The translations under genes and the position numbers were made by a program. Shown piece by piece: positions 2,175-47,235 of a stretch of DNA of 64,000 nt (position 1 is its first letter; every line of letters starts with the position of its first letter). The stretch is from positions 682,001 to 746,000 of the forward strand of contig NZ_CP032685.1 in the NCBI RefSeq assembly GCF_003627795.1. Reading direction: 5' to 3'. This DNA is from Rhizobium sp. CCGE531 (GTDB lineage Bacteria; Pseudomonadota; Alphaproteobacteria; Rhizobiales; Rhizobiaceae). The notes beneath the pieces are model-generated. The model did no database searches. It saw nothing but the letters and a program-made list of their open reading frames with translations, and was not told where the DNA came from.

Positions 2175-2402
2175 ATGCAAGTCACAAGCATCACAATTCC
2201 TTCCGGACGGATCCGTATCGTCCGCAAAGCCCAGCGCACGCCTCTGTCGATCTTCATCGATCTGGTACGCGCCCTCGCCCGTAAAATGGCCGAGAGAAGA
2301 AACCGCAATGCGCTGCTCGAGCTTTCGGACGATCAGCTGAAGGACATAGGGCTTTCTCGCGGGCAGGCCGGAAGCGATGTCCATGTTTACAGCCGCTACT
2401 AA
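2175..2402 (+). CDS. DUF1127 domain protein
   Basis: A 75-residue protein ending in the DUF1127 signature RNALLELSDDQLKDIGLSR. DUF1127 proteins are small, basic, alphaproteobacterial proteins; some are stress-induced and have been linked to RNA turnover and phosphate or carbon metabolism. The ATG at 2175 follows GGTGGAG with good spacing; the longer in-frame extension upstream (from 2082) has no such site. The gene stands alone before an AraC regulator. It is longer than the second DUF1127 protein in this window (46707-46853), and no CTCCTCCC hairpins follow it. Confidence 0.8.
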   Translation: MQVTSITIPSGRIRIVRKAQRTPLSIFIDLVRALARKMAERRNRNALLELSDDQLKDIGLSRGQAGSDVHVYSRY

Positions 2403-46125: not shown

Positions 46126-46344
46126 GGGCATCCTCCTGTTTCGGGGAATCACGTTGGGGGTTGGTCTTCGATGTAGCGCGCTACAGGCGTCGCACATAGT
46201 GACGGCCGTTCATTTTTGCGAGAGAAGGTCTTCGGTTTTCGAACAGGCCGGGACCGGAGATGGCGCAAACGGCAGTGACCGCATCCGACGGGCGCTGCAG
46301 GCCGGCGAAATGAGGCGGAAATCGGTTGAATAGTGCCTGAAACG

Positions 46345-46500
46345 AAAAAGCCTGCCGCGGGAGGAGGTGCGGCAGGCTTTTTACAAGAACCGAACAGCGG
46401 ACGGGAGGAGGAATGCCGCTGTTCCCGCAGTCGTCCCTGGGAGGAGGAGAAGGACGTCTGCAAAAACGAAGGGATGCGGGAGGAGATGCATCGCTTCGAT
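46345..46500 (-). ncRNA. array of four CTCCTCCC-loop hairpins (CcsR/cuckoo-type sRNAs)
   Basis: Read on the minus strand, four successive hairpins each expose the same anti-Shine-Dalgarno motif in the loop. H1 46498-46467: 11-bp stem with one mismatch, loop ATCTCCTCCC. H2 46461-46427: 10-bp stem with one mismatch, loop TTCTCCTCCTCCCAG. H3 46424-46392: perfect 9-bp stem GAACAGCGG, loop CATTCCTCCTCCCGT. H4 46382-46345: perfect 14-bp stem ending in TTTTT, loop ACCTCCTCCC, which is also the terminator. Stem sequences differ while the loop is conserved, which indicates selection on the loop. In Rhodobacter, CcsR1-4 (conserved CCUCCUCCC motif stress-induced RNAs) have this form and follow a DUF1127 gene, exactly as here. 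Confidence 0.82.
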
Positions 46501-46507
46501 AAGAAGG

Positions 46508-46513
46508 ATAATA
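46508..46513 (-). promoter_or_regulatory. candidate -10 box for the hairpin array
   Basis: The minus strand reads TATTAT here, placing a start near 46500, at the foot of the first hairpin. No convincing -35 is seen, so an alternative sigma factor or processing from the DUF1127 transcript is equally possible. Confidence 0.3.
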
Positions 46514-46642
46514 GCCAATTTTTGCTCACCTGATAGGCATTTCTTTGCAGGGCAGTTATGCGCTATGCGAAAAGCGGCGGGCTGAGTTGGTCCGCTCACG
46601 GCTGAGATCAAAGTGTGGAACGATACTTCCAGACAAAACGAA

Positions 46643-46669
46643 AGCGCCTGCTCGGGAAGAACAGGCGCT
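46643..46669 (-). terminator. terminator-like hairpin after the DUF1127 gene
   Basis: The minus strand reads AGCGCCTG, loop TTCTTCCCGAGC, CAGGCGCT, then TTCGTTTTG, 38 bases after the DUF1127 stop. It would allow partial read-through into the hairpin array. Confidence 0.65.
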
Positions 46670-46706
46670 GGCATAATTCAGCTTTATAAGGAGCCGTTAC
46701 GGACCG

Positions 46707-46853
46707 CTAGCGAGCGATGGCTGCGCGGGCAACGTTGCGGATTTCGCCGCGATCGATACCCAGATCATGCAGTTCGCGCGTGGACATACGGCCCAGTTCG
46801 GCGACCGTCTGACGATACTTGCGCCAGTTATTGAAAGAGCGTGCTACGTTCAT
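46707..46853 (-). CDS. DUF1127 protein (48 aa), CcaF1-like
   Basis: A 48-residue gene: MNVARSFNNWRKYRQTV, then ELGRMSTRELHDLGIDRG and EIRNVARAAIAR, a complete DUF1127 domain with a basic N-terminal helix. ATG 46853 follows AAGGAAAGGGGATCATC. In Rhodobacter the corresponding small protein (RSP_6037/CcaF1) is stress-induced, binds RNA and affects processing of the sRNAs cotranscribed behind it. By position this gene would do the same for the four hairpins at 46345-46500. Upstream (46920-46935) is AT-rich and probably the promoter. Confidence 0.88.
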   Translation of the reverse strand: MNVARSFNNWRKYRQTVAELGRMSTRELHDLGIDRGEIRNVARAAIAR

Positions 46854-47093
46854 GATGATCCCCTTTCCTTGGGCTTTCGAAGCTGAGCTGCCGTGTTTGG
46901 CGCTCCCTTCGCTTCGATGAGAAATATATAATCGAAACCCCCAGCCTTTTGCAGAGCTAAGAGATCACTGCACCCATGCATTTACTGCATTGGTCGCCCG
47001 GAAATCAGGCGGTTCCAATTCCCATTCGCCGCTGAGGCCTTTGTGATTTGCTGATGACACCGGCGTCTTTGTCTGCGAAAAGAAGGGAGATGA

Positions 47094-47172
47094 GAGACAG
47101 GGGCGTCCGCTTTCCGGCGGGCTGAGAAGGACCCTTCGAACCTGAACCAGATCATGCTGGCGGAGGGAGTCG
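47094..47172 (+). promoter_or_regulatory. TPP riboswitch (THI element)
   Basis: The conserved core is visible: GGGGCGTCCGC, GGCGGGCTGAGAAGGACCC, CGAACCTGAACCAGATCATG and CTGGCGGAGGGAG. It lies about 65 bases upstream of thiM. Binding of thiamine pyrophosphate should switch off thiMED expression, probably by masking the ribosome site. Confidence 0.95.
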
Positions 47173-47235
47173 CTCGGGACCTCGCTAAGCTCAGCACGTC
47201 GTCCCTTTGCGTCTCGCCCGCCCGAAAGGGGCGAT

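Follow-up and report, generated by a model that had tools for sequence, protein, structure and literature searches.

The locus lies on a replicon of 1.46 Mb (C2 of the genome) and presents, within the 64-kb window (the whole stretch of DNA that was analysed), a short DUF1127 gene followed on the same strand by an array of four hairpins that share a loop motif. Gene and array are each preceded by a predicted promoter and by a candidate binding box of the LsrB/VtlR type. The 241 bases tested are 100% identical to plasmid NZ_CP032690.1 of Rhizobium sp. CCGE532. The features, listed in the direction of the minus strand, are the following.

46967-46979, minus: LsrB/VtlR-type box GCATGGGTGCAGT 5' of the DUF1127 gene, matching GCAT-N3-TG-N3-T
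46918-46930, minus: predicted DUF1127 promoter, with a -10-like TATATA at 46925-46930 and a presumed +1 at the A of ATCGAAG (46918), from an alignment of 12 loci
46707-46853, minus: DUF1127 gene, 48 aa (open reading frame and PF06568 match)
46643-46669, minus: terminator-like hairpin 3' of the DUF1127 gene, followed by TTCGTTTTGT (window scan)
46549-46561, minus: LsrB/VtlR-type box GCATAACTGCCCT 5' of the array
46500-46513, minus: putative array promoter, with a -10-like TATTAT at 46508-46513 and a predicted +1 at the A of ATCGAAG (46500)
46340-46500, minus: predicted four-hairpin cuckoo/ar14 RNA of about 161 nt (Rfam, folding, comparison with SmelA099)
46467-46498, minus: hairpin 1, at the 5' end of the RNA and outside the ar14 match, with its loop octamer at 46478-46485 (folding, covariation)
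46427-46461, minus: hairpin 2, loop octamer at 46439-46446 (Rfam, folding, covariation)
46392-46424, minus: hairpin 3, loop octamer at 46403-46410 (Rfam, folding, covariation)
46345-46382, minus: hairpin 4, loop octamer at 46359-46366, with a U-rich tail (TTTTTCGTTT), likely the terminator (Rfam, folding, covariation)

The predicted start of the array RNA is 207 bp past the end of the DUF1127 gene, and 222 nt separate the stop codon from loop 1. On the other side of the gene, and directed away from it, a TPP riboswitch occupies 47089-47185 of the plus strand (RF00059, 63.2 bits, cut-off 54.3); the open reading frames after it resemble thiM, thiE and thiD by eye. A second DUF1127 domain of the window is found at 2262-2369 (plus strand, 45.8 bits), within an open frame of 110 codons.

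The 48-codon gene had been called DUF1127 in a preliminary description of this DNA, and its product does match Pfam PF06568 (62.3 bits, cut-off 23.3). Among the nearest named DUF1127 matches listed are those of R. lusitanum, R. miluonense and R. freirei. For DUF1127 proteins both RNA binding (CcaF1) and PhoR binding are reported, and the same source records no sign of RNA binding for YjiS (PMC12501420).

The octamer CTCCTCCC occurs six times in the window, both strands counted, compared with a mean of 2.09 in shuffled sequence, where at least six copies were reached in 3 of 100 shuffles. Four of the six copies fall within 127 bases of the minus strand (46359, 46403, 46439 and 46478). Folding of the predicted minus-strand RNA gives four hairpins (-66.7 kcal/mol), and every octamer base is unpaired at a probability of at least 0.99, in agreement with the four hairpins and shared loop that had been described; the reported U-run is likewise in place after the stem of hairpin 4. 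The loop CCUCCUCCC had been ascribed to all four hairpins, and in this respect the description needs correction: hairpin 1 here carries UCUCCUCCC, the full nonamer is present in three of the four loops and the octamer in all four. The consensus for the hairpin 1 loop in our alignment is ACCTCCTCCC.

This alignment comprises the window and those 45 of the 80 database loci that contain exactly four copies of CTCCTCCC. The array structure is beyond chance, and the compensating pairs that had been noted in the stems are borne out: standard pairs fill 91.5% of the cells over the 46 rows, 28 of 41 pairs changed on both sides, and none of 500 shuffles was as high on any of five measures. Sliding the structure along the alignment lowers pairing to 37-52% of cells. 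Hairpin 3 is the strongest witness, with all nine pairs changed on both sides and 98.3% of cells paired. Hairpin 1 is supported also, as the three pairs of its inner helix all changed on both sides; 16 of 46 rows, the window's among them, cannot form its sixth outer pair. Two individually named pairs found no support: the first, in hairpin 2, is broken in 37 of 45 rows, and the second, at the foot of hairpin 4, in 35 of 46. Hairpin 2 also loses its outermost pair in 20 of 39 rows. Mean column identity is 0.979 for the octamers, 0.865 for the stems and 0.655 for the rest, the first value being inflated because the 45 rows were selected for exactly four CTCCTCCC. The locus thereby displays the structural features of a cuckoo RNA, adjacent hairpins with CCUCCUCCC or a near form in the loops and divergent stems, the stems being kept.

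Rfam assigns the array to ar14 (RF02344), whose full model (1-123) matches 46343-46467, hairpins 2-4, at 101.6 bits, well over the cut-off of 58.8. CcsR1 was considered as the nearest kin and ruled out, as its covariance model scores 27.8 bits against a cut-off of 65.3. The preliminary assignment to a CcsR/cuckoo locus stands in part, then: a cuckoo-type anti-Shine-Dalgarno RNA does lie beside a DUF1127 gene, and its kin is ar14 (SmelA099/NfeR1), not CcsR. The accompanying remark that neither part is easily found by standard annotation fails, because Rfam and Pfam find both and the corresponding gene of R. etli p42e is annotated as DUF1127. Four ar14 copies over the cut-off are present in the own genome, this array included, and only this one shows four loops in a pattern search. 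The array had no match in the phage collection searched for a phage origin.

Judged by its sequence, the array belongs to the ar14/cuckoo family as a four-hairpin anti-Shine-Dalgarno RNA and has the form of SmelA099; RNAs of this kind are known from stress and symbiosis, and their loops can mask ribosome-binding sites. Reinkensmeier and colleagues described two families with CCUCCUCCC loops, SmelA075 with three hairpins and SmelA099 with four (PMC3927594). SmelA099 (SmrA6 of S. meliloti, RFMSmelA099) is tabulated at 1328175-1328334, minus strand (PMC7143759), and this pSymA stretch starts with AATCGAAGCGATGCACCTCCTCCC and contains four loops in 160 nt. The array shares with it the AATCGAAGCGATGCACCTCCTCCC start, the four hairpins and the terminator stem; the length predicted here is 161 nt, and position 46500, where the RNA is predicted to begin, is at most 1 nt away from the 5' end tabulated for SmelA099. 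SmelA099 also has a strict box, 59 nt before that 5' end. It differs in its surroundings, where a motif search of 2.3 kb of pSymA found no DUF1127 open reading frame. By analogy with SmelA099, the array would be expressed as a small RNA.

Comparison with the other known systems places the locus further. NfeR1, an ar14 RNA, resembles the array in hairpins 2-4, in its anti-Shine-Dalgarno loops and in the LsrB box upstream; ar14 is described with three hairpins, and the fourth here is added at the 5' end. The AbcR RNAs (ar15) likewise combine anti-Shine-Dalgarno motifs with an LsrB box about 61 nt upstream, but belong to another covariance family, and PMC8844928 gives AbcR as Hfq-binding and NfeR1 as not. 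CIN1 is the published name for a cuckoo-type RNA together with a short DUF1127 gene (Reinkensmeier and Giegerich 2015, cited in PMC10253847); here, too, a short DUF1127 gene adjoins an array of anti-Shine-Dalgarno loops on the same strand, and the locus can be called by that name. In the ccaF1-CcsR1-4 locus of Rhodobacter sphaeroides a DUF1127 gene is also followed by RNAs with the CCUCCUCCC motif, which are cotranscribed with it from one RpoHI/RpoHII promoter and cut into four RNAs (PMC10253847). The present locus differs from it by two apparent units and a single predicted RNA with four loops.

The pairing of gene and array was followed through 81 DUF1127 loci, namely the window and the best 80 of 257 confirmed DUF1127 relatives, some genomes giving two loci. 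An array was called where at least three matches to CTCCTCC[CTA], overlapping ones included, were found more than 140 nt past the stop codon. By this rule 53 of the 81 loci have an array downstream on the same strand; a stricter clustering rule retains 51 (49 with four loops, two with three). We take these 53 loci, and the family coded f1, to be Rhizobiaceae from record titles. All of the 13 array loci checked with Rfam (window included) exceed the ar14 cut-off. A further 11 loci carry ar14 upstream on the same strand, which brings the loci with an array within 700 nt to 64 of 81. Homologous loci with kept stems and lost loops had been named as the case that would speak against the proposal. 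The 28 loci with no downstream array answer this in part: the 11 with an upstream ar14 all have the loop motifs, and in the other 17, one of which (L084) ends at a contig edge, Rfam found no ar14. Within the genus (25 genomes, the own included, rows read by hand), 23 have DUF1127 and then ar14 within 500 nt on the same strand, the ar14 of one of them (G003) being cut and below the cut-off; in the remaining two (G001 and G016) ar14 precedes the gene.

Wider scans were made with the loop pattern. Across the order it matched 32 of 121 genomes (own included) and gave 29 new loci (L171-L199), nine with a DUF1127 match nearby and 20 with none; the pattern is not specific, because it also seems to catch AbcR-like RNAs (L180, by eye). 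Across the class it matched 18 of 142 genomes (own included) and gave 27 new loci (L200-L226), where a DUF1127 match is confined to one cluster (L212, L219 and L223, all in genome G165) and several of the other matched strings resemble simple repeats by eye. In the own genome, two of the four ar14 arrays have a DUF1127 neighbour, and the other two (L001 and L003) have no such match in about 1.4 kb. Since no DUF1127 match stands near L001, L003, SmelA099 and the 20 order-wide loci, gene and array can exist apart. Inspection by eye of 21 loci, mostly arrays of this kind, revealed no other small partner gene in common.

Several individual loci deserve mention in their own right. In the own genome, the order is reversed at L002 (C1, about 1723454-1724589, minus strand), where two DUF1127 genes follow ar14, the nearer one at about 430 nt. 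Also on C1, at 2482822-2483130 of the plus strand (L170), an arginine-rich open reading frame of 46 aa with no Pfam match stands 43 nt before two hairpins with CUCCUCC loops, after which a terminator-like stem follows. Of 26 genomes searched for this frame, the 16 that belong to the same genus all have it and it was found in none of the ten others, and L170 is possibly an unrecognised cousin of the DUF1127-array unit. Elsewhere, L166 (G034) has eight loops of the anti-Shine-Dalgarno type 45 nt past a DUF1127 gene, two to four hairpins being reported for such RNAs. L165 (G031) strings together four DUF1127 genes, and such loops occur about 42 nt past three of them, which makes a tandemly repeated unit of gene and array. 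At L212 a long chain of paired anti-Shine-Dalgarno hairpins begins 19 nt past a DUF1127 gene, much as in ccaF1-CcsR.

How gene and array may be controlled can be approached from the sequence between and before them. The preliminary description had pointed to a hairpin at 46643 and a TATTAT at 46508 as signs of separate control. Both are present (46643-46669 and 46508-46513), and the idea gains support from the related loci: of the 53 array loci (window included; best 80 of 257), 47 have a terminator-like hairpin in the gap that separates gene from array, where 5.25 would be expected from shuffles that preserve base composition only, not dinucleotides, and the block before the array is strongly conserved in 12 aligned loci. 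In the window each unit has a box that starts 61 nt before the common ATCGAAG start motif. With respect to cotranscription, a terminator-like hairpin and what appears to be a second promoter block thus stand between gene and array. A simple sigma-70 scan found no promoter on the minus strand here.

For the boxes we used the consensus GCAT-N3-TG-N3-T as printed for VtlR/LsrB (PMC7486931, PMC8844928). In the 53 array loci (best 80 of 257) the strict box is found in 42 DUF1127 promoters and 44 array promoters, and in both at 33 loci; it is absent from 11 and 9, respectively, and by eye the misses listed look like departures of one letter. Its position hardly varies. Counted from the start codon, the gene box begins at -123 to -128 in 41 of the 53 loci (window included); counted from loop 1, the array box begins at -75 to -77, likewise in 41, and the spacing from array box to start is 60-62 in 41 of 53. 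Two array boxes, at -111 and -113 (L057 and L058), are far off because the search motif probably missed the first loop. A looser start motif, applied to the DUF1127 leaders, gives a spacing of 61 in 22 matches and of 70 in 14. The gene box is independent of the array, since 19 of the 28 loci with no downstream array also have a box before DUF1127. In the own genome, the L001 and L003 arrays have a box at -74 of loop 1, and the L002 array has none in the 150 nt before loop 1. The window holds 16 box matches, where shuffles average 10.03 and 4 in 100 of them reach that number, and the box with TCGAAG occurs 22 times in the own genome. The box alone is weak evidence for a regulator; its fixed position across species carries the argument.

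The own genome encodes LsrB, as a LysR-type open reading frame matches that of A. tumefaciens (9HH1) with an E value of 4.9e-193. As a positive control, both AbcR RNAs examined (of four ar15 matches) have a box 61 nt before the ar15 match, and the LysR-type gene that matches LsrB lies beside them. Published work provides direct precedents: an LsrB box at -61 to -49 for AbcR1 (PMC8844928), and activation of NfeR1 by LsrB bound at -72 to -57 (PMC10746234). On the side of the protein genes, atu1667 is bound and activated by VtlR (PMC7486931) and is the orthologue of small Brucella proteins called DUF1127, three of whose genes are VtlR-dependent (PMC12595884). A box 5' of each promoter is thus combined here with a genome that encodes LsrB, from which we infer that LsrB may drive both units. 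Arrays of anti-Shine-Dalgarno loops are also seen downstream of a LysR gene resembling LsrB by eye at L178 (G079) and L180 (G063), the position that AbcR has in the own genome.

These observations bear on the reading by which the locus would be an operon of the CcsR/ccaF1 type, transcribed from one RpoH promoter 5' of DUF1127 and released by RNase E with the aid of the DUF1127 protein. The gene order is the same, and the Rhodobacter locus is so described (PMC10253847). In ten loci of six other families the nearest array begins 19-106 nt past the DUF1127 stop, a gap that leaves little room for a second promoter. The gap here is 222 nt, however, and 165-323 nt (median 202) in 51 Rhizobiaceae array loci; the terminator-like hairpin and the conserved block before the array also count against one unit, as do the low score of the CcsR1 model and the tabulated 5' end of SmelA099, which falls at the array itself. 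We regard a single operon as unlikely at this locus; some read-through from the DUF1127 gene into the array is possible.

We consider it probable that the locus is a rhizobial CIN1 in which an ar14/cuckoo RNA of the SmelA099 form lies beside DUF1127, LsrB acts on two promoters and the loops silence mRNAs in trans. The DUF1127 mRNA and the array RNA would each be switched on from a promoter of its own, the two promoters being 418 bp apart, with LsrB bound at a single box in each. The array RNA would end at hairpin 4 and expose four CU-rich loops; by pairing with Shine-Dalgarno regions, these would reduce the translation of mRNAs in trans. The model is NfeR1, whose anti-Shine-Dalgarno loops silence transporter mRNAs and ntrB by pairing at start regions (PMC10746234). 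The mRNAs lowered by the array RNA would be those with strong Shine-Dalgarno regions. The DUF1127 protein would act separately, in RNA processing, as CcaF1 does, or through a partner such as PhoR, as in Agrobacterium.

Instead of acting as antisense to particular mRNAs, the loops might chiefly form a sponge that takes up a protein or free 30S subunits. Four loops that are alike and predicted to be fully exposed would suit such a function, as would the several ar14 copies of the genome. We hold it to be quite improbable, as NfeR1, whose loops share the motif, base-pairs with defined mRNAs and so silences them (PMC10746234). That the array regulates its neighbour, its loops pairing with the Shine-Dalgarno region of DUF1127, is very improbable: the DUF1127 leader does contain AAGGAAAGGGGA, but the best duplex (hairpin 2 loop) reaches -10.6 kcal/mol and falls short of the -12.9 that marks the top 5% among 2000 random 47-mers drawn from the window, and autoregulation by the loops was ruled out because this predicted pairing is weak.

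The RNA family, its four-hairpin form and its linkage to the gene are already published, and separate publications place an ar14 RNA and a DUF1127 gene under LsrB/VtlR control. What appears to be new, on sequence grounds, is a matching LsrB-type promoter on both gene and array. Two such promoters at one CIN1 locus were not found among the matches listed in our literature search, subscription literature lying mostly outside its scope. A 2021 paper reportedly on LsrB and many Agrobacterium small RNAs may already include the matched promoters. With respect to origin, we lean slightly towards the view that the Rhizobiaceae split an older gene-array unit into two LsrB-promoter units (61-bp spacing, ATCGAAG start), other families having kept the tight, presumably cotranscribed form.

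Two published lines meet at this locus, that of LsrB on ar14 RNAs and that of VtlR on DUF1127 genes, and the locus offers a precise layout of a common rhizobial arrangement, with predicted starts, a terminator-like hairpin and two candidate regulator boxes. The layout is also relevant to the question whether DUF1127 proteins work jointly with cuckoo RNAs. If the split into two units is true, one redox-sensing regulator would fire both a small protein and an anti-Shine-Dalgarno RNA, as a stress module with two outputs.
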